From Methylocystis heyeri (lineage in GTDB: Bacteria > Pseudomonadota > Alphaproteobacteria > Rhizobiales > Beijerinckiaceae), in NCBI RefSeq assembly GCF_004802635.2, contig NZ_CP046052.1:2852001-2916000 (forward strand): DNA of 64,000 bases. Direction: 5' to 3'. The position numbers were made by a program, and so were the translations under genes. A model generated the notes under the pieces. That model saw nothing but the letters and a program-made list of their open reading frames with translations. It did no database searches and was not told the origin of the DNA. Below are positions 17,679 through 58,620 of the stretch, piece after piece; position 1 is the stretch's first letter, and the number at the start of each line of letters is the position of its first letter.

Positions 17679-19585
<1,907 letters not shown>

Positions 19586-19805: not shown

Positions 19806-20762
19806 TCAAGCCACCTGAGGCACCGCATTGTCGGCGCCGCCGGTCTTGTTCTCGAGGAACCAGCGGTAGGCCCCGGCGATGCCCTCGTCGAGCGAGATTT
19901 CAGGCTTCCAGCCGAGCGTGCGAATCCGGCTCGAATCCATCAGCTTGCGCGGGGTGCCGTCGGGCTTGGTGGTGTCGAAGACGAGTTCGCCGCTGAACCC
20001 GGTCGCGCGCTGCACGCATTCGGCTAGCCCGCGAATCGATATCTCGCTTCCGGCGCCGCAATTGATGTGCTCATAGCCGTCATAATTGTCGAGACAGAAC
20101 ACCACGCCTCTGGCGAGATCGTCGACATGCAGGAACTCGCGCAGCGGCGCGCCCGTGCCCCACACCACGACTTCCCTGCGTCCGTTTTCCTTGGCCTCGT
20201 GAAACTTGCGAATCAAGGCCGGAAGAACGTGGCTCGTCGTAAGGTCGAAGTTGTCGTTGGGTCCATAGAGATTGCAGGGCATGACCGAGATGTAGTGCCG
20301 CCCATATTGCTTGCGATAGGCCTGACACAGCTTGATGCCCGCTATCTTGGCGATGGCGTACCACTCGTTGGTCGGCTCGAGCGGACCGGTCAGCAGCGAT
20401 TCTTCCTTGATCGGCTGAGGCGCGAATTTGGGATAGATGCAGGACGAACCGAGAAACACCAGGCGGTCCACATTGGCGGCGTGGGCCGAATGAATGATAT
20501 TGGTTTCGATCGCCAGATTGTCGTAGATGAAATCTGCGGGGAAAGTGTCGTTCGCAAAAATGCCGCCCACTTTCGCGGCGGCGAAAATGATCGCGTCCGG
20601 TCGATTCTGTTTAAGCCATACTTCGACTGCAATCTGATTTCTGAGGTCCACCACGGTGCGATCGACCTTGATGACCTCGTCGCCCCTGCCCTCAAGGTAG
20701 CGGGTCACGGCAGAACCCACCATGCCTTTATGACCGGCGACCCAAATTCGACGCTTGCTCAT
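19806..20762 (-). CDS. fcl: GDP-L-fucose synthase
   Basis: A 318-residue epimerase/reductase completing GDP-L-fucose from the Gmd product. Motifs: GHKGMVGSA for NADP binding, the GSSCIYP block with the catalytic Ser/Cys, and the YxxxK motif in WYAIAKIAGIKL. CNLYGPNDNF and PLREFLHVDDLA are characteristic of the family. Start ATG 20762 has GGAG at good spacing; the earlier ATG at 20777 has none. It converges with gmd, so the two are not one operon despite acting in series. Confidence 0.95.
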   Translation of the reverse strand: MSKRRIWVAGHKGMVGSAVTRYLEGRGDEVIKVDRTVVDLRNQIAVEVWLKQNRPDAIIFAAAKVGGIFANDTFPADFIYDNLAIETNIIHSAHAANVDRLVFLGSSCIYPKFAPQPIKEESLLTGPLEPTNEWYAIAKIAGIKLCQAYRKQYGRHYISVMPCNLYGPNDNFDLTTSHVLPALIRKFHEAKENGRREVVVWGTGAPLREFLHVDDLARGVVFCLDNYDGYEHINCGAGSEISIRGLAECVQRATGFSGELVFDTTKPDGTPRKLMDSSRIRTLGWKPEISLDEGIAGAYRWFLENKTGGADNAVPQVA

Positions 20763-21123
20763 CGCTATCTCCGGCATTCAAAGCAAAACCGCCCTCGCCC
20801 CTTTGCGGCGAGGCCCATACAATCCCAAAAGCATATGTTCGGCAAGGGCAATTAGCCATCTGGCGCAGCGAAGCGCGAACGCGCTCGGCCAGCTTTTTCG
20901 AGGCGCCCGATTTGAGCGCGCCGCCCCATCGGAACGAATGCCTTTGCGTCACATTACCTTTGCAAGATGAATCGGACGTGTCGTCGCCACGCCCGATTTT
21001 TTTTTCGCTCTGCATGCGACGAGCATTTCCCGGAAAGAAGCCAAAAAGGCCACTGCGCAAACGCGCAGCGGCCCCTGAAACTCCAATTCGACGGCGCCCC
21101 ATTAAGCGGACGCCATTATCGGA
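20763..21123. other. Intergenic region, nothing clear
   Basis: A 361-base gap between fcl and the first sedolisin-like gene, both on the minus strand. It holds the fcl promoter region and an eight-T run near 21000. Open frames across it have no family features or ribosome-binding sites. Confidence 0.45.
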
Positions 21124-22563
21124 TCAATAATTGCCCTTCGGAGTGCCCCAGCCGGTGCACCAATCCCAGGTGAGCGGCGCCGCCTGGTCATTCTTGTAAG
21201 TTTTTTCGATCCACAGCGGATTGTAGCCTTGGCCCAGGCCGCCGAGCGGACCGCCCGGTCCGCAGAGACCACTCTTGACGTTAGTCGTATAGCCGACGAT
21301 GCCGCCCGTCTGCCCGAGACCATAGATGTTCTGCAACACCTTGCTGCTGCTGGCCCAGAAGAAACTGGCCCAGTTGAAATAGCCGCCCATCAGCGCGGTC
21401 GCGAGACCCGTGCCGCCCACAGGGGCCCAGCCGCTCTGATAGGTGGTGTTGTAGACCCAGAAACCGTTCACCGGATCGGCGAGCGCGGACAGATCGGGGG
21501 TTCCGCGCTTGGAGCCGAGCAGCTGATTCAGAGGCGCGAAATTCTGGTAGCTCGGCAGCGTTTCATAGGCGCTGGGTCCGCCGCCGGTGCCGGTCCCATA
21601 GAAGGCGTCGTTCCAGACCGCTTCGCTCTTGAAATTGCCATTGCCCTGATTCCGGCTGTAGGTCGTGCCGCCGACGCCGACCACATAAGGCGAAGCCGCC
21701 GGATAGCTGACGCCGGGAGCGTCGCCCGCGGCGGAGAGATAGGCGACGTTGGAGTTGTTGAAGTGGGAGTCATAAGAGGCCTCCGCAGCGAACTCCGGAA
21801 CGCCCCAGGGCATGACGATCTGACCGCCGACTGGCTTAATGCAAGCAGTCGCCGTGTCGACGGCCCTTAATATATCGGCGACGGAGGGCGATTGCGCCTC
21901 GACCAGCCAGATTGTGGCGCCGGGAGCCATGGCGTGAACCGCTTCCACGGCCATCGCGCCCTCTAGGTCCCATCCCGTCCCGACTCCGCTGGGAGGGGTG
22001 CTGGAGTTATTGCACCCGGGAACGCCCGCTGCGCCCGGCGCGTAGACATAAACGAAAGCGGGATCCGGCAGATTGAAATAAGTAGAGAAGATACGCAGAT
22101 CGCCCAGCGCATTGGGGTTGTGGTAAGCGGTGACGACCGCAATGCCCCTGGAGCCGCCCTGGGAAGTCACAGTCGCGCTGAGCGGGCTACATCCCTGCTG
22201 GAAGCCGGGAGCTATGTGATAGGTGCAGGCGACCGAGGCCGGAGTCTCGATCAGATTCGCCGCCTGAGGCGGCACGGGAAAGACGCCAGGAGCCGGAGGA
22301 ACGACTCCGCTGGGCGTCGCCAGCAGCTTCACATTGGTGTGAGCGGCCCCCGGAACCTGGGCGTCCGACGGCGGGACGATGATGTGCGGGCTGCCCGCCG
22401 GCGGGGCTGCCGCCGCGCCATTGACGTTGATCCCAAAAGCTTGTGCGGGAACAGGCGCCGGGCCGGCGTCGGCCGCGATTGCGGCTCCGCAGCCATAAAC
22501 CGCCAGCGCGGTTCCCGCTAGCAACATTGCGGCTAAACTCTTTGTATGCCCCAGAGAAGCCAT
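21124..22563 (-). CDS. Secreted sedolisin-like (S53) protein, catalytic residues lost
   Basis: A 479-residue exported protein with a signal sequence (cleavage probable after AIAADA, about residue 32). The body follows the S53 peptidase pattern: GTGWDLEGAMAVEAVHAMAP, MPWGVPEF, SAAGDAPG, VVGVGGTTYS, GGGPSAYE, RGTPDLSALADP and a C-terminal GWGTP. Two of the three catalytic positions differ: the Asp expected four residues after the Glu of WDLE is Ala, and the Ser of GGTS is Gly (GGTGLAT). The oxyanion Asp in AGD remains. A non-proteolytic binding or structural role at the cell surface is inferred. The RBS is TTTTAGGAGAACG. A paralogue lies at 24705-26147. Confidence 0.82.
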   Translation of the reverse strand: MASLGHTKSLAAMLLAGTALAVYGCGAAIAADAGPAPVPAQAFGINVNGAAAAPPAGSPHIIVPPSDAQVPGAAHTNVKLLATPSGVVPPAPGVFPVPPQAANLIETPASVACTYHIAPGFQQGCSPLSATVTSQGGSRGIAVVTAYHNPNALGDLRIFSTYFNLPDPAFVYVYAPGAAGVPGCNNSSTPPSGVGTGWDLEGAMAVEAVHAMAPGATIWLVEAQSPSVADILRAVDTATACIKPVGGQIVMPWGVPEFAAEASYDSHFNNSNVAYLSAAGDAPGVSYPAASPYVVGVGGTTYSRNQGNGNFKSEAVWNDAFYGTGTGGGPSAYETLPSYQNFAPLNQLLGSKRGTPDLSALADPVNGFWVYNTTYQSGWAPVGGTGLATALMGGYFNWASFFWASSSKVLQNIYGLGQTGGIVGYTTNVKSGLCGPGGPLGGLGQGYNPLWIEKTYKNDQAAPLTWDWCTGWGTPKGNY

Positions 22564-22680
22564 AAACGTTCTCCTAAAACCGGGTTAATCCAGACCGACT
22601 CGAACCTTAGCGAGCCCCCTAACGAAGATTAATTATTTCAATTCTCTGCCCGACGCAATCCCGAGACGCTCTAGCTTCAT
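22434..22680 (-). repeat. Shared leader and signal-peptide cassette, copy 1
   Basis: The 117 bases upstream of the start codon (22564-22680) match 26148-26264 with 2 mismatches, and the first 42 codons encode the same residues in both paralogues. Similarity stops abruptly upstream of 22680 and falls off within the coding region. The block contains the RBS TTTTAGGAGAACG and, further up, TTGCGT and TAATTA spaced by 17 bases, which might be a promoter. Confidence 0.85.
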
Positions 22681-23010
22681 TGGAAAGTGAAGGCTTTCGG
22701 CGGCGCTCGGCGCGGTAATTTCCTCTATTTCAGCAATCACGGGGCTTTACGGCGCTGAACGCGAGAAAGCGCCGCAAGCTGAACCCCGCGTTTCCGAAAA
22801 CCCATAACTTTAAACTGTATTGCAGCCATATTTTTTAAGGCCCCAGTCGCGCCGGAAACTGGACAATGGGAAAGCGTATGCGTATGATGAACGAGTTGCG
22901 GCTGACAGATTCAGGCGCGACGAGCCAGACTATGCGGCGGCAGTAAGGTTATAGAGCCAATCAATCCGCCATATCTGTCCTTTTCTAATTTTGGCCGGAC
23001 GAGGCATGTG

Positions 23011-23325
23011 ATGCTTAGACGAATCGCTGCGGTAACGTGTGTTTTGCTGATCGGCGCTTCAGGCGCATCGGCTTTGGAGAGGCCCGCCGACAATTGTCAG
23101 GGGGCGAACGGCAGAGGCGCGAGCGGAGCGGCCTGCGAGCCGAAGATCGGGTCTTCCGCGGTCGTTAAGCCGGGCAGCGCGAATGCCACGGGAACTTCTG
23201 CGACCGGCGACGCCACCAAGGTCGCGGACACAAATGTTATCGGAAGAAACCCTCCTCCGACGCATAAGGGGCACTTCCCGCTCCCGGGGCCGATCCACCA
23301 GCCCCCCCACGTCAGCCCGAACTGA
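23011..23325 (+). CDS. Small secreted protein, unknown function
   Basis: Not recognised. About 104 residues with a clear signal peptide (MLRRIAAVTCVLLIGASGAS then ALE) and a low-complexity Gly/Ala/Ser/Pro-rich mature part with two Cys (NCQG and AACEP) and a His/Pro-rich end. The start may be ATG 23011 or the adjacent GTG 23008, both after GAGG. It is transcribed away from the first sedolisin-like gene and lies between the two paralogues, so a shared surface role is possible but unproven. Confidence 0.55.
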   Translation: MLRRIAAVTCVLLIGASGASALERPADNCQGANGRGASGAACEPKIGSSAVVKPGSANATGTSATGDATKVADTNVIGRNPPPTHKGHFPLPGPIHQPPHVSPN

Positions 23326-23805
23326 TTCGGCTCAGGCGACGGCGGCGGAAAATCGGTCGCAAAGCCTCTTGAATGATTAAGCGCGATGCGCCCGGCGCCT
23401 TGCGCTTTTTCATGTTCAGAGCATCGCGCGGGTTGATGGCGATTTCGCGCATATCAATCTGTTATTTCCGACGTGGAGGAAGATAAAGCGATAGCCTAAA
23501 TCGCAGCGGTGGGCGCCCTGCATGCAGGTCTCGGCGTAAAGGCGTTAGGCGATGAAGTGCCGGCGGACACCCGCGGTTCCGGCGTGAGGGTATTACGATT
23601 TTCCCATAAACAGGGCCTGTCGGGATTTAGGATTGAAGGCGCCGATCGCGGCGGGTGCGTCTAGGTCTGGTGATTCCCTTACGGTCTGGAAGGATTTGAG
23701 CGTCATATAATTTCAAGCAGATCTGCTCGGGTGTGCGCCCAACTCGAGCAAACCAGGGCCCTCCGTCCTGAGGAGACCGCCTGCGGCGCTTTCCGCTCGA
23801 CCATA

Positions 23806-23876
23806 GCCCGTCATATAGGACGGGCGTCCAGCAGGATGCCCTATGGCCCGTCATATAGGACGGGCGTCCAGCAGGA
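23806..23876. repeat. Two tandem copies of a 31-base hairpin unit, 40-base period
   Basis: The units at 23806-23836 and 23846-23876 are identical. Each begins with the inverted repeat GCCCGTC-atatag-GACGGGC and continues CGTCCAGCAGGA. The 9-base linkers differ. Two copies are too few, and the units too close together, for a CRISPR array. Confidence 0.8.
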
Positions 23877-24202
23877 CGCCTCATGTTCGTTTGAGCGATA
23901 AGAAATCGCGCTGGAATTAAATGGCTCGAAAGCGTTCCGTAAAAGGGCCTCAAGATCTGGCGCCGGTTGGGTCTCAAGGTGGAAAGATCAAACGGAATTC
24001 GAGACCCCACTCTCAATCCGGCGGTTTCCCGGGGGCCCCGAGATGAGCCCTTTGCGCCGTCTCGTGATCGAGCATTTAGCAGTTAGCAATCCTTCGCCTG
24101 AGCCCCAACGATTCGACATCCGCGTTCAGCGGGTATTTTGATCGATCCCAGATTGATTTGGGGAGCAGTTGCGCGCATTCCAGGCGCATCGGCCGCCTTA
24201 TA

Positions 24203-24319
24203 CGAAATCCGCTCTATTGAAACGGCATTTCGTATTCGTTCGCCGCAAAAATCGATGCCGATCGTTGATTTTTTGCGGCGGTCGCTGCCGCGATTCGCGA
24301 AGCGATCTCGCGGAAGCCG
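24203..24319. repeat. Dispersed two-hairpin element, copy A
   Basis: About 117 bases homologous to 31107-31220. The first hairpin has arms CGCCGCAAAAATC (24241-24253) and GATTTTTTGCGGCG (24267-24280). The second, less perfect here, covers about 24286-24313 (CCGCGATTCG ... CGATCTCGCGG). Confidence 0.75.
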
Positions 24320-24625
24320 CCTTAGAGAAGGGGCGCGCTCTGATTCTTCGACGAGCTGGCGCCGCTCTCCCTGCGAAGCGTACTCGCCTCTATCACGGGC
24401 AGAACGATTCGATCATCTAGCTTCGGCGGTTTCCGCGCCTGTTCCTGCTCATCTTGTCCGCGCTGCATCCGTTGCGCCGCGATCGCTAACCCGGCCCGAC
24501 GCGATCACCCGCGAGGTAATCGTCCACTCCCGCAGTGACGCCGCCCGTAGGGGGCATCCCATCATGCGCCTGGAGCCGTCGTCCCAGCATATCGAATCAG
24601 ACGTTGACGCATTCTCTGGGCAAGA

Positions 24626-24657
24626 AAAAGCCGCTGCAGGGTTATGCAGCGGCTTTT
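24626..24657 (-). terminator. Rho-independent terminator of the second sedolisin-like gene
   Basis: A perfect 13-bp stem AAAAGCCGCTGCA/TGCAGCGGCTTTT with a 6-base loop. Read on the minus strand it is followed by TTTTTCTTG and lies 48 bases after the stop of the gene at 24705-26147. Confidence 0.85.
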
Positions 24658-24704
24658 CGTCGAATTCCCAACCTGGTCTCGCTGCTTCCAGCGAGAGAGC
24701 CGAG

Positions 24705-26147
24705 TTAGTTGTAGTTTCCGTGCGGAGTGCCCCAGCCGGTGCACCAATCCCAGGTAAGCCCCGTCTGCTGGAAGTTTACGACGCCGACGTAATTCTGCTG
24801 GATCCACTGAGGATCATAGCCTTGGCCGTTTCCATTAGCGGCGCCGCCCGGCCCGCAGAGGCCGCTGTTGACGTCGGTCACGAAACCCGGGCCGGCAAGG
24901 CTGGACGAGTACAGGGTGTTGAGGAAGGTCTGGCTCGACCAGAAGAAACCAGCCCGGTTGGCGATCGCGGCCACAAAGGAAGCCGCAAGGCCGGTGCCGC
25001 CGAAGGCGCCCCAACCGTGTTGATAGGTGGTGTTGTAAACCCAGAAGCCGTTTTGCGGATCGCCGAGCGCAGCCAGATCGGGTGTGCCACGACGACCGTT
25101 CAAGAGGGACGCCAAAGGAGCCCAATACGCCGACTGGAACGTCGGAATGGGTTCGTAAAGGCTGGGGCCGCCGCCGGTGCCGACCTGGGCGTAGGCGTCG
25201 TTCCAGACCGCTTCGCCGAGGAAGGCGCCGGTCGACTGGTTGCGGCTGAAGCTCGTGCCGCCCACGCCGACGGCGTTGGGCGATGCGGCGGGATAGGTGG
25301 TCCCGGGAGCGTCGCCGGCCCCGGCGAACATCAGGTAGGAGCCCATGAAGTTGTCATAGGCCGACTCGGCCGGAAATTCCGCAGTGCTCCAGGGCGCGAC
25401 GATCTGGCCGCCGTTCGTGGATTGCAGGCAGGAGCCGGCGACGGCCACGGCGTCCATCGTATCGGCGATGGAGTCGGACTTCGCTTCGATAAGGTAGATC
25501 TTGGCGTTGGGCGCCAGCGAATGGACCGCCTGGATGCTCAGAGCGGCTTCGAGATCCCAGCCCGTGCCCGCACCTGACGTGGGAACGGGGCCGTTGCTGC
25601 AACCGGCGTTCGGACCGGAAGTCGCGTAAACGACCTGGAGGTTGGCCGTAGCCAATCCGAAGGCCGCCGAGAAATATTGGAGGTCGGAGAGGGCGGCCGA
25701 GTAATCGAAGGCGGTGACGACCGCGATGGCTCTGGCGCCGCCCGTAGCGAGATTGGTCGCCGTGGTGGGGCTGCACCCCGCAGAGAAGCCGGGAACGATG
25801 CGATAGACGCAGGCGACCGAAGCGGGAGTCTCGACCAAGCCCCCTGCCGGCGCCGCCACATTGGCGGCCGGCGTCGCGGCGTTGGGCGCGGCGCCAGCCG
25901 GCAGCCCCAGCATCTTGACATTGGTGTGGACCGCGCCGGGCTTTTGCTGATCGGACGGCGGAACGATGATCTGCGGCCTGTTGGCCGGAGCGAGCACGAC
26001 GCCGTTGACATTGACGCCAATAGCTTGTGCGGGAACAGGCGCCGGTCCGGCGTCGGCCGCAATTGCGGCTCCGCAGCCATAAACCGCCAGCGCGGTTCCC
26101 GCTAGCAACATTGCGGCTAAACTCTTTGTATGCCCCAGAGAAGCCAT
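24705..26147 (-). CDS. Secreted sedolisin-like (S53) protein, second paralogue, catalytic residues lost
   Basis: A 480-residue exported paralogue of the protein at 21124-22563. The first 42 residues are the same, while the mature region has diverged widely but keeps the S53 pattern: GTGWDLEAALSIQAVHSLAP, APWSTAEF, GAGDAPG, VGVGGTSFS, GGGPSLYE, RGTPDLAALGDP, GGTGLAA and WCTGWGTPHGN. The catalytic Asp is replaced by Ser (EAALS) and the catalytic Ser by Gly (GGTG), so both paralogues share the same losses. Cys in GLCGPG and DWCTGWG is conserved in both and could form a disulfide. The RBS is TTTTAGGAGAACG. Confidence 0.82.
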   Translation of the reverse strand: MASLGHTKSLAAMLLAGTALAVYGCGAAIAADAGPAPVPAQAIGVNVNGVVLAPANRPQIIVPPSDQQKPGAVHTNVKMLGLPAGAAPNAATPAANVAAPAGGLVETPASVACVYRIVPGFSAGCSPTTATNLATGGARAIAVVTAFDYSAALSDLQYFSAAFGLATANLQVVYATSGPNAGCSNGPVPTSGAGTGWDLEAALSIQAVHSLAPNAKIYLIEAKSDSIADTMDAVAVAGSCLQSTNGGQIVAPWSTAEFPAESAYDNFMGSYLMFAGAGDAPGTTYPAASPNAVGVGGTSFSRNQSTGAFLGEAVWNDAYAQVGTGGGPSLYEPIPTFQSAYWAPLASLLNGRRGTPDLAALGDPQNGFWVYNTTYQHGWGAFGGTGLAASFVAAIANRAGFFWSSQTFLNTLYSSSLAGPGFVTDVNSGLCGPGGAANGNGQGYDPQWIQQNYVGVVNFQQTGLTWDWCTGWGTPHGNYN

Positions 26148-26264
26148 AAACGTTCTCCTAAAACCGGGTTAATCCAGACCGACTCGAACCTTAGCGAGCC
26201 CCCTAACGAAGATTAATTATTTCAATTCCCTGCCCGACGCAATCCCGAGAAGCTCTAGCTTCAT
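26018..26264 (-). repeat. Shared leader and signal-peptide cassette, copy 2
   Basis: Counterpart of 22434-22680: 117 bases upstream of the start plus the first 42 codons, almost identical at the DNA level. A further 33-base identical block lies at the 3' ends (21139-21171 and 24723-24755), encoding the C-terminal WDWCTGWGTP region. Confidence 0.85.
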
Positions 26265-26416
26265 GAGAAACTGGATATGATCTGGTTAGCGGAAAGGAGA
26301 GAATTGAACTGATTTAGGGCCGGCATTCGGTCGAGCTTCGCTTTACGTAGTCGCGGCGGCGCGGCATGAACCGGACATCGGCGCGCAGTCGCGACGCCGC
26401 CGACGAATTGCAGACG

Positions 26417-27775
26417 TCATCCGACCTCCGCCGTTTCCCGGTTTTTCGCCTCTTCGAGGCGTTCCGCCGGAGCCGTGAGAAGATCTTCGAATTGCGGCAG
26501 TATCCGCTTTGCTCCCATGCTGTCGGCGAGCCGCAGGCCGGCTTCCGCCTGCTCCGACAAATCCGTTTGGGAGGCCGTCAGTATCGCGGCCGCCAAGGCC
26601 TCTGGATCGCCGCTCGGCGTGAGGATGGCGGCATGGCTCAGCATGTCGAACAATTCGGTGTCGGGATCGGCGGTCGCCACAACGGGACGCCCGCTGGCCA
26701 GCATGCCGCTCAATTTGGAAGGCAGAACGAGATCGGCTGCGCCCCGATGCTGCGGCAACACATGCAAATCCGCGAGCCCCAGCAGATCGTTCAATCTCTC
26801 GGCCGGCTGCAGCGGAAGATGCAGCACATTCGGCAGATCGGCCGACGCCGCGATCAATGATTGCCGACTCGGCCCGGCGCCCGCGATGACGAAATAAATA
26901 TTGCTTCGCTCTGTCAGGCGGCGCGCCGCCTCGACCACGATATCGAGCGCCTGCTTGACGCCGATATGGCCGGAATAGAGCACGACATAGGCGTCTTCCG
27001 GCAATTTCAGTTCTGCGCGGAAGCTGTTGGAGCGACTGTCGGTGGGATGAATAGCGCTGGTGTCGACCCAGTTTCTCAGCACCCTGATCGCGCCGGGTTC
27101 GAGCCCTTTGGCGGCGAGCGCCAGACGCATTTTGAATGAAATCGTAACGATATGGTCGAAGCCGCGAAGCAGAAGCGCTTCGCCGGACACCGCGAGATTT
27201 TTCAGCGCTGCGCCCTTGATGTGCCCGACGCCGAAAGCCGCGTCCACCTCGAGGTCCTGCACGTGAAGCAGAGAACGCGCGCCGAGCAGCTTGGCTGCCA
27301 ACAAGGCGACGGGGGCGGAGAAAAGCGTCGGTTCGACGCACATGATCGCATCGGGCCGAAAACGCAGGGCGCGCCACAGCAGCATCGGAACCGCGGAGAT
27401 CCCGAAGCTCAATGGCGCCAGAAGTCGCCAGACGCCGCCGGCGTCGGTCTTCATCGCCATGGGGCAGCGCGAGACCCTCACGCCGTCGAGCGTTTCGCTG
27501 CTGTAGGCGAAGGCTTTGTATGGCTTGCGCACATACCAGCCGGGATAGTGCGGCGGCGCCGTCACCACCTCGACCTGATGCCCTTGCCGGGCGAGATGGC
27601 GGGCGAGTTCGGCAGTGTATTTTGCGCAACCGATCAGCTCGGGCGCATAATTTATCGCATGGATGAGAATCTTCCGCTTCGGCGCGCCGTCGCCTGTATC
27701 ATCACTTTGCGATTGAATGCTGCTCGATGAAAACGCGCGACACAAATCGCGCCAAACGGTTTTGAACGGCGGCAT
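26417..27775 (-). CDS. WcaI-like glycosyltransferase (GT4 type)
   Basis: A GT-B glycosyltransferase of about 452 residues from ATG 27775. The conserved core begins at KRKILIHAINYAPELIGC with the family's N-terminal ILIHAINYAPE and PHYPGWYV motifs. The C-terminal donor domain has VVLYSGHIGVKQALDIVVEA and LPSKLSGMLASGRPVVA. The group includes WcaI of colanic-acid synthesis, which fits with gmd and fcl in the same region, so it may transfer fucose to a surface polysaccharide. The start is uncertain: ATG 27775 has a weak AAGG site, and the frame is open to 27934. Confidence 0.85.
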   Translation of the reverse strand: MPPFKTVWRDLCRAFSSSSIQSQSDDTGDGAPKRKILIHAINYAPELIGCAKYTAELARHLARQGHQVEVVTAPPHYPGWYVRKPYKAFAYSSETLDGVRVSRCPMAMKTDAGGVWRLLAPLSFGISAVPMLLWRALRFRPDAIMCVEPTLFSAPVALLAAKLLGARSLLHVQDLEVDAAFGVGHIKGAALKNLAVSGEALLLRGFDHIVTISFKMRLALAAKGLEPGAIRVLRNWVDTSAIHPTDSRSNSFRAELKLPEDAYVVLYSGHIGVKQALDIVVEAARRLTERSNIYFVIAGAGPSRQSLIAASADLPNVLHLPLQPAERLNDLLGLADLHVLPQHRGAADLVLPSKLSGMLASGRPVVATADPDTELFDMLSHAAILTPSGDPEALAAAILTASQTDLSEQAEAGLRLADSMGAKRILPQFEDLLTAPAERLEEAKNRETAEVG

Positions 27776-28019
27776 CAGGGACCTTGCGTCTAAGATATTC
27801 GGGTTTATACGTAAGCCTAACGAAGGCTTGGTGTTATGGCAAGCGAGATCGTCCATGGGCGAATTGGTCTCGGAACGGCAAGCTGCGGTTGAAACACCGA
27901 CTATTTTGCGCTGGGTCTGAGCCAAACGCGCCACCGCATTAAATCATTTTCACGTAATCACGGAAGCCTCCAGATTGGAGTTTTCCGACTGCGACAGCCC
28001 GTAGATTTTTATGCAAATG

Positions 28020-34857: not shown

Positions 34858-35742
34858 ATGCGTCTGCTGGTGATTTTTGCGGCCTGGGCGCCGGACGACG
34901 GGGAAAACTCGCAAAAATGGCTGGCCTGGTACGAAAATATCCTCGCCGAGCGCTTCCCCGGCGACGACAAGATCGTGGCGGCGAATTGGGGGTCGGCGGA
35001 TTGCGTCGAGCGACGCCTCGAGGGCCTGCCCGGGATTTTGGAGTTCGGCCGGGTTCCCGAGGAGCTCCATGTCAATTCCGACGCCGCGCCGTTTCAACTG
35101 GGGCTGAGCCTCGCTCGGGAAATTCTCCCCGATTACGACTATGTGCTCTTCGCGCATACCAAAGGCGTCAGCTATGCTTTCGAGAGCATCGAAAATTGGC
35201 GAAACGACGTTTCGAAGACGGTGTTCGACCGCCGCCTCGTGTCGGATTTCATCCAAACCGCGCCGCCGAGCCTGATCGCGGATAGAGGCCATATGGTCAC
35301 CGGGGCGGACTCGATCAAAACCTTTCGCGCTAGGACGGGCGCGATGGGCTTCGTCCTGCCGTTCTTCTTCGGCGCCACGATGACGGTCTATTACGCGCCT
35401 GCGCGCCTCGTGGCCGAGTTGATCGAACGCATGCCGGGCGAATTCCTGTCCAAAAACCTCCTCAGCCAGGGCATGACCCGATATATGTTCGAATCGGCGA
35501 CGCCGAGCCTGTTGACGATGCTGGACGCGAAGCCCGCCTTCCTTTGCGGCCCGCGCTTCAACGAGAGACTGAACCCTCATGTCTCCTATGATTTCGATCC
35601 GCGGCACAATTCCGCGCTGGTGATGAGGGAGTTTGAAAAAAGAGAAGCCGAAGGGGAGGCTTATCAGCAAATTCCAGTCCCCTATGTCTTCGGCGCTGCG
35701 GAAGACGTTTATAGATCGAACGTCGCCTTCAAGCTGACGTGA
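34858..35742 (+). CDS. Unknown protein, possibly glycan-related
   Basis: Not confidently recognised. The 294-residue protein has no signal peptide. ILPDYDYVLFAHTKGVSYA and the later FFFGATMTVYYAP recall the HTKG-type blocks found in proteins acting with rhamnan synthesis or other glycosyltransferases, but the resemblance is weak. Start ATG 34858 lies about 11 bases after GGGGAA, 52 bases past the end of the histidine kinase. Read-through from the kinase transcript is likely. Confidence 0.6.
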   Translation: MRLLVIFAAWAPDDGENSQKWLAWYENILAERFPGDDKIVAANWGSADCVERRLEGLPGILEFGRVPEELHVNSDAAPFQLGLSLAREILPDYDYVLFAHTKGVSYAFESIENWRNDVSKTVFDRRLVSDFIQTAPPSLIADRGHMVTGADSIKTFRARTGAMGFVLPFFFGATMTVYYAPARLVAELIERMPGEFLSKNLLSQGMTRYMFESATPSLLTMLDAKPAFLCGPRFNERLNPHVSYDFDPRHNSALVMREFEKREAEGEAYQQIPVPYVFGAAEDVYRSNVAFKLT

Positions 35743-35964: not shown

Positions 35965-36444
35965 TCAGGCTGCCGATGTAGTGAGAAGCAACTGCCCTTC
36001 AGAATTTAACTCAGGATCAGCACGAACAATGCAAAACGATGGGTTTGCTTTCCTCAAAAATAAAAATCGAACTCTAGCCGGTTGGCCACTTAGAGGCTGG
36101 TAGCACTCGAATCTTAGACTATAGGTTCCTGGCGGCACCTCAAGCAACGAACTATCAGATATACTTCCAATCTCAATGACGCCATCGTTAGGCGCCTCGA
36201 ACGGCACCTCTATTACCCTGATCGCATCAGCTGGTTGCTCGCCTTCTATGGTGTCAACTATTACAGTCACGAGATGCGGACCACTTTCAGCAATGGTACG
36301 GAATGCCGCACTCCCCGGTCTCCACGAAAACCCCTGAGCAACATGCGCACTGGTCCACTGATTGAACGGACCTTCTGTCGAGTGGTCGAAAACAGTCACC
36401 TGCGAATATGAGACAAGAATGGGGAATTCTACGGAACTAATCAT
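35965..36444 (-). CDS. ComJ-like immunity protein
   Basis: A 159-residue protein from ATG 36444 (AAGG upstream). The pattern SYSQVTVFDHSTEGPFNQW, HVAQGFSWRPGSAAF and LVTVIV is that of the competence protein J family; the Bacillus member inhibits the DNA-entry nuclease NucA. Outside competence operons such genes usually act as immunity proteins to nuclease toxins. No NucA-like toxin lies beside it, so it is probably an orphan immunity gene of the neighbouring Rhs locus. The frame extends to 36612, but that part is the flanking direct repeat. Confidence 0.75.
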   Translation of the reverse strand: MISSVEFPILVSYSQVTVFDHSTEGPFNQWTSAHVAQGFSWRPGSAAFRTIAESGPHLVTVIVDTIEGEQPADAIRVIEVPFEAPNDGVIEIGSISDSSLLEVPPGTYSLRFECYQPLSGQPARVRFLFLRKANPSFCIVRADPELNSEGQLLLTTSAA

Positions 36445-36475
36445 GGGACAACCTTGATTTGAACCTGTGAGCCAT

Positions 36476-36552
36476 CGGGGAACGAGGAAAGTAGTCCCCC
36501 CTCGCTGAGCTCCGGGCAAACCGCTGCAAAACAGTTCGATTTGCAGTCTCAC
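36476..36552. repeat. Direct repeat flanking the comJ-like gene, copy 2
   Basis: Counterpart of 35880-35954. The first hairpin is CTGCAAA...TTTTGCAG, with different arm bases than copy 1 (CTGCACA...TGTGCCGCAG) but still able to pair, and the second is CGAGG...CCTCG. Confidence 0.7.
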
Positions 36553-36670
36553 AAAATCAGAGTTGTCACACCCCACGCTCTGAAGATGCTGGCACATAGC
36601 CGAGCGCGCCATGTATTAGTCATCCAACAATGTCGCGGCCGCGGGACGCAAACTCAAGTGTCATCCGCAT

Positions 36671-36925
36671 CTATTCATATATCCGTGACGCATATAAAAT
36701 ATCAGCTATCGTTTTCCATGTAGGAGACACAGGGACAGCTTGTCCCGTGTTAATGTAGTAATTATCCATTGCTCTTATCCAATCCTCCATTGCTGCCAGG
36801 AATTTCTCGAGGGTAGGATTCTCCCATCTTTCGGGGTTGACCTCGAAATCGCGGCGCAACTCGCCCACAAACTCTGCGAGATCTTCTTTAGTTTTTATTG
36901 TAGATATTCTAGACGACAGTTCCAT
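36671..36925 (-). CDS. DUF7660-like immunity protein
   Basis: An 84-residue acidic protein from ATG 36925 (AAAGGA 7 bases upstream), 10 bases after the stop of the Rhs-toxin gene. The features WENPTLEKFLAAMEDWIRAM, YYINTGQ, WKTIADILYASRIYE match the DUF7660 family, found repeatedly as a small partner of polymorphic toxins. It is the likely specific antidote to the toxin domain encoded immediately upstream. An earlier in-frame ATG at 36952 overlaps the toxin gene and is less likely. Confidence 0.75.
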   Translation of the reverse strand: MELSSRISTIKTKEDLAEFVGELRRDFEVNPERWENPTLEKFLAAMEDWIRAMDNYYINTGQAVPVSPTWKTIADILYASRIYE

Positions 36926-36935
36926 ATCGTGTCCT

Positions 36936-38102
36936 TTATTCAACCGTTCCACCTTTAAGACAAATAATGCACCCGTAATTTGTTGTTGTTAGTTTCCATC
37001 CTTCTGCGATAATTTCTTCGGTAGTAGCCGGTATAGCGTTGACTCGGGTTCCTGCCAGCTGCGTTGCCAACAACCGTCTATTATCGAGGGTGAAAGTTAG
37101 ACCACCTTGTTGAAAAGTCCGTATTGGCGGTAGTTCAACCGGCGACATCGTCCCTGCTCTGAGCGCGTCGACGGTCGTTTGCAAGGAAGCCCCATCACGA
37201 AACGTTGCGCTAACGCTACTCTGGGTAAACCGAATGGCGCTGCCGTCGATAAGGCCCGCCATTCTTTCTGCGGTCCCAGTAGCCTTGGCGAAGTTTCCAA
37301 GTATGCCGAAGACGGCGGCGCCGGGTACATCACCGATCGACATTTGCACGCCGGGGTCGCAAAAGGCGCCGCAGGCATTGAGAATCCCACCGACCGCATT
37401 CGGAACCGTGGTCCCAAAATAATGCTGAGGCGAAGAGAACATATCGCCAAACGCACTTTGCACGCCGCTCACGAAGCCGGGGCCGTCGGCGGAGGTCCCG
37501 AACGGGTCGATCAGGCTTACCGGATTGTTCCCGGCATAGACATAGGTGTTGACGCCGCCGCCGAGGCCGATCGGGTCGCTTTCGATATAGCGCCCGGAGG
37601 TCGGGTCGTAGTCGCGGGCGCCGTTGTAGTTCAGCCCGGTCTCGCCGTCGGCGAATTGACCCGGAAAGCGAAGGTTGAACCCAACTGCGCCCGTGGGGTT
37701 TCTCGGCGTTCCATTGCCGAACGGATCGGGATCGAACGACCACAGGATCATGGGCGTCGCCGGCGATTGGGGCGTCGGGCCGATCAGCGCCATCGCCCCA
37801 TTCAGATGGTCGGGCGCGATAAAATAGGGCGATTGATTGGGGAAAATCTCGGCGATCGGCATGTCGCCGAGCCAGACGATCTCCCGAACCAGCGTGCCGG
37901 CGGCGTTATAACCGCCGATCAAATGGCCCGATATGTCATAGGCGAAATAGGTCGCCGGCTGGCCGCCGGTGCTCTTGCTCACTCTCTGGCCGAGGCCGTC
38001 GACGCCGTAGCTGGTGGAAATCGCTCCGACCGTCGCCTGCGCGAGACGGTTCTTGGCGTCATAGGCGAAAGCGTAGCTCGCCCCCGGCGTCGTAGTGGTC
38101 CG
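36936..38102 (-). pseudogene. Rhs-core remnant with C-terminal polymorphic toxin domain
   Basis: The open frame reads Rhs repeats (AYDAKNRLAQATV, YDISGHLIGGYNAAG) and the Rhs core end (GARDYDPTSGRYIESDPIGL, YVYAGNNPVSLIDPFG), followed by a unique toxin region of about 180 residues. Full Rhs proteins exceed 1,000 residues; here an in-frame TGA at 38103-38105 and the groES promoter cut the frame, so the 5' end is missing. The toxin tail contains ELPPIRTFQQGGLTFTLDNR then RLLA, which recalls the ParB-type nucleotide-binding pattern; this is a guess. GTG 37982 could still start a 348-residue product. An immunity gene follows, so the locus may be a displaced Rhs tip rather than dead DNA. Confidence 0.8.
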
Positions 38103-58307: not shown

Positions 58308-58445
58308 CCCGCAATCCGCGACCTTGTTGCGGCTTGAACCCGCCCGGTCCGCGGCGCTAGAGTCTTTCCGGTTCAAATTGAACCGCGTTTTCTTCACGCG
58401 AAGCGGTTCCCACTTCGCCCGAAAACACTCTATGCTGAAAGACGC

Positions 58446-58556
58446 CAGGGGAGCCCCGCCCGGCGACGTTTGGGGCTGAGAGGCCGAGAATGCGCCATAG
58501 GCGGCGCGGCGCGGCGACCCTTATAACCTGATCCAGCTCATACTGGCGTAGGGAGG
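58446..58556 (+). promoter_or_regulatory. TPP riboswitch (THI element)
   Basis: The conserved GGGGCTGAGA (58472-58481), a central stem, ACCCTTATAACCTGATCCAG, CTCATACTGGCGTAGGGAGG: this is the classic thi-box consensus for the thiamine pyrophosphate aptamer. It lies immediately before the thiOSGE genes. The conserved 3' end overlaps the ribosome-binding site GGGAGGAAG, so the switch probably blocks translation initiation when thiamine pyrophosphate is bound. Ends are approximate. Confidence 0.94.
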
Positions 58557-58560
58557 AAGA

Positions 58561-58620
58561 ATGCCCCGAAGAATCGACCAGCGCCCGCTCGGCGGGCAAG
58601 CGCTTCGTCATGCGCATTGA
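58561..58620 (+). CDS. Candidate 19-codon leader ORF overlapping the thiO start
   Basis: ATG at 58561 sits 5-6 bases after GGGAGGAA, the only strong ribosome-binding site in the thi leader. The frame encodes MPRRIDQRPLGGQALRHAH and stops at TGA 58618-58620, past the thiO ATG at 58610. thiO itself has no good site, so its translation may depend on ribosomes finishing this ORF. Alternatively ribosomes may enter thiO directly from the same site; the spacing (about 50 bases) argues against it. Short conserved peptide function is not claimed. Confidence 0.45.
   Translation: MPRRIDQRPLGGQALRHAH

Follow-up and report, generated by a model that had tools for sequence, protein, structure and literature searches.

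Two predicted exported sedolisin homologues of Methylocystis heyeri that have lost the catalytic Asp and Ser

Introduction

The peptidases with which the present locus is best compared are kumamolisin, kumamolisin-As and sedolisin, of MEROPS family S53, whose published motifs EXXXD and GXSXXXP hold columns 204, 386 and 390 of the alignment described below (PMC7804941). A precedent for dead proteases of clan SB that work beside a live one is found in Clostridioides difficile: CspA and CspC, of the subtilisin fold, carry mutations at two catalytic residues and function alongside CspB, which is active (PMC6636752). These are spore proteins of family S8 with a His triad, unlike the proteins treated here, to which they are likened by analogy. 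In the case of S53, a study of a fungal set dismissed fragmented, likely inactive homologues (PMC5567314); no studied S53 pseudopeptidase was found in the literature searched, a statement that applies to that literature only, and the paper searches returned no description of a CspA/CspC-CspB-like arrangement in S53. In this study, we have analysed 64,000 nucleotides (nt) of the Methylocystis heyeri genome (NCBI RefSeq assembly GCF_004802635.2, contig NZ_CP046052.1, positions 2,852,001 to 2,916,000; hereafter the window), and describe two genes, W1 and W2, whose products appear to be secreted S53 homologues devoid of the catalytic Asp and Ser. The genome encodes three PF02461 (AMO/PmoA-type) genes, and on its second contig a stretch of 8 kb matches 24 plasmid records, 13 from Methylocystis and 9 from Methylosinus, the best over 49% of its length; the host is accordingly an alphaproteobacterial methanotroph.

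Results

Active-site losses in W1 and W2

The two open reading frames (ORFs) lie where a preliminary description of the window, made from the sequence alone, had placed them:

21124-22563, minus strand: W1, predicted secreted pseudo-sedolisin, 479 aa; Glu kept, Asp four residues later replaced by Ala, Ser replaced by Gly
24705-26147, minus strand: W2, predicted secreted pseudo-sedolisin, 480 aa; Glu200 kept, Asp204 replaced by Ser, Ser386 replaced by Gly

Both ORFs are full length and the proteins are 60% identical; by eye, each has a Shine-Dalgarno-like AGGAG upstream of its ATG and a signal-peptide-like stretch at its N-terminus. In the numbering of W2, used throughout, Glu200 is the Glu of the WDLE motif and is kept in both proteins. 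The column of the catalytic Asp (204) holds Ser in W2 and Ala in W1, and that of the nucleophile Ser (386) holds Gly in both. EXXXD is thereby broken through loss of its Asp, and GXSXXXP reads GGTGLAAS or GGTGLATA, with Ser replaced by Gly and the Pro of column 390 by Ser (W2) or Ala (W1). At the same columns, E-x3-D and GGTS are present in the remaining family members and in kumamolisin, and the alignment with sedolisins thus bears out both replacements, which the preliminary description had read from the two proteins by themselves. Asp279 of the GD motif, which we take to be the oxyanion-hole Asp, is kept in W2, as is the aligned Asp in W1. With neither nucleophile nor catalytic Asp, the S53 mechanism would be impossible for W1 and W2.

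The comparison set was obtained from 118 profile-aligned rows by removal of four (the pair, two proteins twice), three duplicates and three short fragments, which leaves 108. Letters are present at all three catalytic sites in 107 rows, of which 105 read Glu/Asp/Ser and none is without both Asp and Ser; the two non-intact ones are L039, where Glu is replaced by Asp, and the remote L105, whose row is probably misaligned at these sites. The table covers the loci behind these 118 rows; L104, L122, L123 and the plasmid matches are not among them. Judged from this alignment, the joint absence of the catalytic Asp and Ser in W1 and W2 is not due to chance.

Family-conserved columns, defined as at least 90% conserved over the 108 rows, number 46. 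W1 and W2 both retain 37 of these; six (145, 204, 250, 252, 386 and 390) are changed in both proteins, and three in one (150 in W2; 164 and 203 in W1). All six columns changed in both copies are assigned, by motif or by alignment, to the active site or its immediate vicinity. SxSxG has lost both of its Ser in each copy (S250V and S252P); in proteins of the subtilisin fold these serines line the substrate strand, and the AlphaFold models of W1 and W2 both break the SxSxG strand at residue 252. Column 145, where both copies have D145T, is an Asp at the end of the first strand; a possible equivalence to kumamolisin Glu32 is not claimed here, as the alignment with the Protein Data Bank (PDB) chain begins past Glu32. 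When the active-site set is taken from the literature (EXXXD, GXSXXXP and the oxyanion Asp), it holds 6 columns, 3 of which are changed in both copies, as are 3 of the 40 others (p = 0.022), and a wider set gives p = 9e-6, a post hoc value, the set having been picked after the alignment was seen. Towards the C-terminus, Asp467 is kept in both copies and column 425 has Asp in W2 but Asn in W1; we take these two columns to be candidate calcium-site positions. Column 425 is Asp in 73 of the 108 rows and varies among intact ones.

Assignment to S53

Several results counted against membership of S53. Neither protein has a match in Pfam or NCBIfam, even at E = 1; a phmmer search of the PDB with W2 alone returned no S53 chain; and Pfam Peptidase_S8 is matched by only 5 of 12 family members, at best with 1.4e-8, and W2 is not one of the five. 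As the searches with the two proteins by themselves gave nothing, the homology of W1 and W2 to S53 was established by profile and structure. A profile built from these 12 members, which comprise W1, W2 and 10 intact relatives, matches, among solved structures, kumamolisin at 1.4e-33, sedolisin at 2.9e-26 and tripeptidyl-peptidase 1 at 5.9e-11. The AlphaFold models have a mean pLDDT of 81.6 (W2) and 83.3 (W1), and in a Foldseek comparison with the PDB the 17 best matches of each model are all S53, pro-kumamolisin first. The S53 layout proposed in the preliminary description agrees with both lines of evidence, and on profile and predicted fold the assignment of W1 and W2 to the family, by fold and descent, holds. 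The pair thus resembles kumamolisin, kumamolisin-As and sedolisin in fold, motif order, Glu column and oxyanion Asp column, but lacks their catalytic Asp and Ser and their intact EXXXD and GXSXXXP. A further difference, the absence of any PF09286 (Pro-kuma_activ propeptide) match in the whole genome at E <= 0.001, means that the intact paralogues described below are also without this propeptide, and it is therefore not special to the dead pair.

Relatives and origin of the pair

The genome of M. heyeri contains three more paralogues, L003, L004 and L005, scattered on the chromosome, with intact Glu/Asp/Ser motifs. Within the genus (39 genomes, 30 of them with completeness of 90% or more and contamination of 5% or less), a search with the W2 protein found an S53-like match in two genomes, M. 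heyeri itself, which is counted in match totals wherever it was in the searched set, and G207, which carries a single copy, L016, with motifs intact. From its similar flanking genes, compared by eye, L016 looks like the orthologue of L003. These four proteins are 42-51% identical to the pair and share with it a short N-terminal region, a signal-peptide-like start and a C-terminal W-D-x-C-TG-G block; unlike the pair, they have E-x3-D, SxSxG and GGTSxxxP intact.

A match was obtained in 8 of the 15 genomes of the sister genus, to which Methylocella and Methylocapsa records belong, and all nine matches have E-x3-D and GGTS (L009-L015 from the table, L115 and L116 by eye). Further out, W2 matched in 7/199 genomes of the family, 3/397 of the order, 5/385 of the class and 5/398 of the phylum; at most eight candidates per genome were scored at family level and at most four at the levels of order, class and phylum, where the host's own L005 was missed, so that further misses are possible there. 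In the named genome collection, W2 alone found nothing; with the alignment as query there are at least 501 relatives, and among the best 80 loci, which were kept, many are acidobacterial or actinobacterial. On plasmids, 23 records matched, none over 80% of the query. In the rows that were read, no second dead pair came to light.

A tree of 45 proteins joins W1 and W2 as sisters (support 100/100) at the end of a stem branch of 0.57, and places them in a six-row clade with L003, L004, L005 and L016 (100/100), within which the branch order is unsettled (supports 83/29 and 92/92). Because the two are sisters and have the same Gly386, Thr145, Val250 and Pro252, most of the active-site loss is most simply ascribed to a single event before W1 and W2 split, not to two parallel ones.

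Outside the 5' tract described below, W1 and W2 differ over 426 codons with a dS of 1.06 and a dN of 0.38. The resulting dN/dS of 0.36 (bootstrap 2.5-97.5%, 0.27-0.47; maximum, 0.61) is similar to the values among the host's intact paralogues (0.32-0.44) and indicates purifying constraint on the two genes after the loss, on the assumption that the loss is older than their split.

A near-identical 5' tract

The two genes share a tract at their 5' ends:

22433-22680, minus strand: 5' tract of W1, a leader of 117 nt and the first 131 nt of the gene, with the signal-peptide-like region
26017-26264, minus strand: 5' tract of W2, the counterpart of the W1 tract

The tracts are identical at 243 of 248 nt (98%), against a dS of about 1.06 elsewhere, and the first 42 residues of the proteins are the same, with 2 synonymous differences in 42 codons. 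Similarity ends on both sides: upstream (-300 to -126), 51 of 174 positions agree without gaps, and downstream the identity falls to the divergence of the remaining gene. Both copies therefore carry the same leader and export signal, and the tract is probably the product of a recent gene conversion of leader and signal peptide. A genome search with 26020-26290 found no third copy of the leader. One 36-nt match to the tract (L008, E 0.013) was taken for chance; by eye it reads like coding sequence. Positions 26080-26264 fold no better than shuffled sequences (z = 0.17), so nothing indicates an RNA element in the leader. The identical first 42 residues, the three intact paralogues and the losses at 145, 250, 252 and 390 come in addition to what the preliminary description held.

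A scan of 20900-26500 for sigma-70-type promoters gave one site only, on the opposite strand and outside the 5' tract. An inverted-repeat scan revealed a possible terminator of W2, which the terminator scan did not list:

24626-24657, minus strand: hairpin downstream of W2, with perfect arms of 13 nt and, after them on the gene strand, T-rich sequence

Between the two genes lie two adjoining 40-nt direct repeats, 90% alike (23803-23882), as well as an ORF of 105 aa (23008-23325, plus strand), divergent from W1, with a signal-peptide-like start and no Pfam match.

Neighbouring genes and other features of the window

The pair is flanked by genes of sugar-nucleotide and glycosyl-transfer type:

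18104-19585: GDP-mannose 4,6-dehydratase
19806-20777: NAD-dependent epimerase/dehydratase of GDP-fucose-synthase type, named by eye
26417-27934, minus strand: WcaI-like glycosyltransferase, adjoining W2

The presence of GDP-fucose-type genes and of the glycosyltransferase suggests a link to surface polysaccharide. The glycosyltransferase is found in 3 of the 39 genomes of the genus, M. heyeri included, at E <= 1e-80; in G207 it stands among genes that, by eye, resemble an exopolysaccharide cluster. In the two other genomes, the 19-20 kb compared around it contained no match to any further protein of the window, and in G207 the lone S53 match (at 34861) and the glycosyltransferase (at 800692) occupy remote parts of the same contig. 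As the neighbourhood is not shared, genomic context is a weak guide to the function of W1 and W2.

Elsewhere in the window, three ORFs at 35965-37982 have a third-position GC of 0.44-0.66, below most of the window; the one at 36936-37982 (minus strand) resembles by eye a fragment of an RHS/YD-repeat protein, with no Pfam match at 1e-3. A TPP riboswitch (58437-58571, plus strand, 60.5 bits) precedes an ORF that, by eye, resembles an FAD-dependent oxidase.

Discussion

We consider it likely that W1 and W2 are exported, catalytically dead S53 pseudopeptidases that have been maintained for a binding or regulatory role. According to this proposal, the ancestor of the pair would have lost proteolysis once and would then have been duplicated in tandem, the 5' end being homogenised later by gene conversion, and both copies would be expressed together. 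The signal peptide points to export by the Sec pathway to the periplasm, or to the outside via a type II system, of which the secretin gene gspD, the sole part searched for, is found in the genome. Binding would take place through the retained subtilisin-like scaffold, the conservation of which argues for such a role.

If the two genes were instead remnants of proteases on their way to becoming pseudogenes, the long stem branch leading to the pair, the occurrence of the dead form in a single genome, the further changes that each copy has suffered on its own at conserved columns and the Asn at column 425 of W1 would be readily explained. However, a dN/dS of 0.36, with no bootstrap replicate above 0.61, together with the retention in both copies of 37 of the 46 conserved columns, makes decay unlikely, and we regard it as quite improbable; the shared losses occur at active-site or adjacent columns only, neither ORF is truncated, and leader and signal peptide are almost identical between the copies. 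Even less probable, in our view, is that the proteins are still enzymes, in which Glu200, Asp279 and the scaffold, all of them kept (the fold according to the models), run some other acid-base reaction: there is no nucleophile, both motifs are broken, and of the 12 columns where the two copies have the same new residue relative to the four close intact relatives, none has gained Asp, Glu, His, Lys, Arg or Cys. The position of the pair between GDP-fucose-type synthesis genes and the WcaI-like glycosyltransferase, as well as the exopolysaccharide-like surroundings of the latter in G207, would suit structural or adhesive proteins of an exopolysaccharide matrix. This we hold to be unlikely, though somewhat less so than decay, since the two other genomes of the genus that bear the glycosyltransferase do not share the neighbourhood, and in G207 the S53 gene lies far from the glycosyltransferase.

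A number of points weigh against a maintained pair of dead peptidases as we propose it. The dead form is present in one of the 39 genomes of the genus, with no conservation across species, and the intact paralogue genes are all distant from the pair. For the dN/dS of 0.36 to describe evolution after the loss, the loss must be older than the duplication. Conservation is looser at columns 145 and 252 than at the others, with another letter in 5 of 108 rows each (two of the five at 252, L058 and L065, are Pro, in rows apparently misaligned there). As regards the tract, strong constraint on the leader may explain its identity in place of gene conversion. Position 252 presumably lies in the strand that pairs with the substrate in S8, and for this reason proteins without the two SxS serines may also be poor at binding a peptide in the cleft, an argument against any decoy or substrate-trap form of the proposal. 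Of the six columns changed in both copies, 204 and 390 differ in their replacement, and the loss, which the preliminary description called identical, is so at Gly386, Thr145, Val250 and Pro252 only. That description had also argued from identical loss in diverged paralogues to a maintained non-proteolytic function; the argument is weaker now that the copies prove to be sisters, while the maintained function itself draws support from the dN/dS and the 37 conserved columns kept in both.

As for what the putative pseudopeptidases would bind, our tentative guess, drawn by analogy with CspA and CspC beside CspB, is that the likeliest partners or ligands are the intact sedolisin paralogues, or their substrates or peptides. 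Somewhat more doubtful is the specific version in which the twin, co-regulated via gene conversion, would act as regulators or chaperone-like partners of the three live sedolisins; if true, S53 would have its own equivalent of the CspA/CspC-CspB arrangement. Several protease families are known to include pseudoproteases. A single bacterium with two dead and three intact-looking paralogues, the dead pair having a common leader and signal peptide, would offer a clean system.

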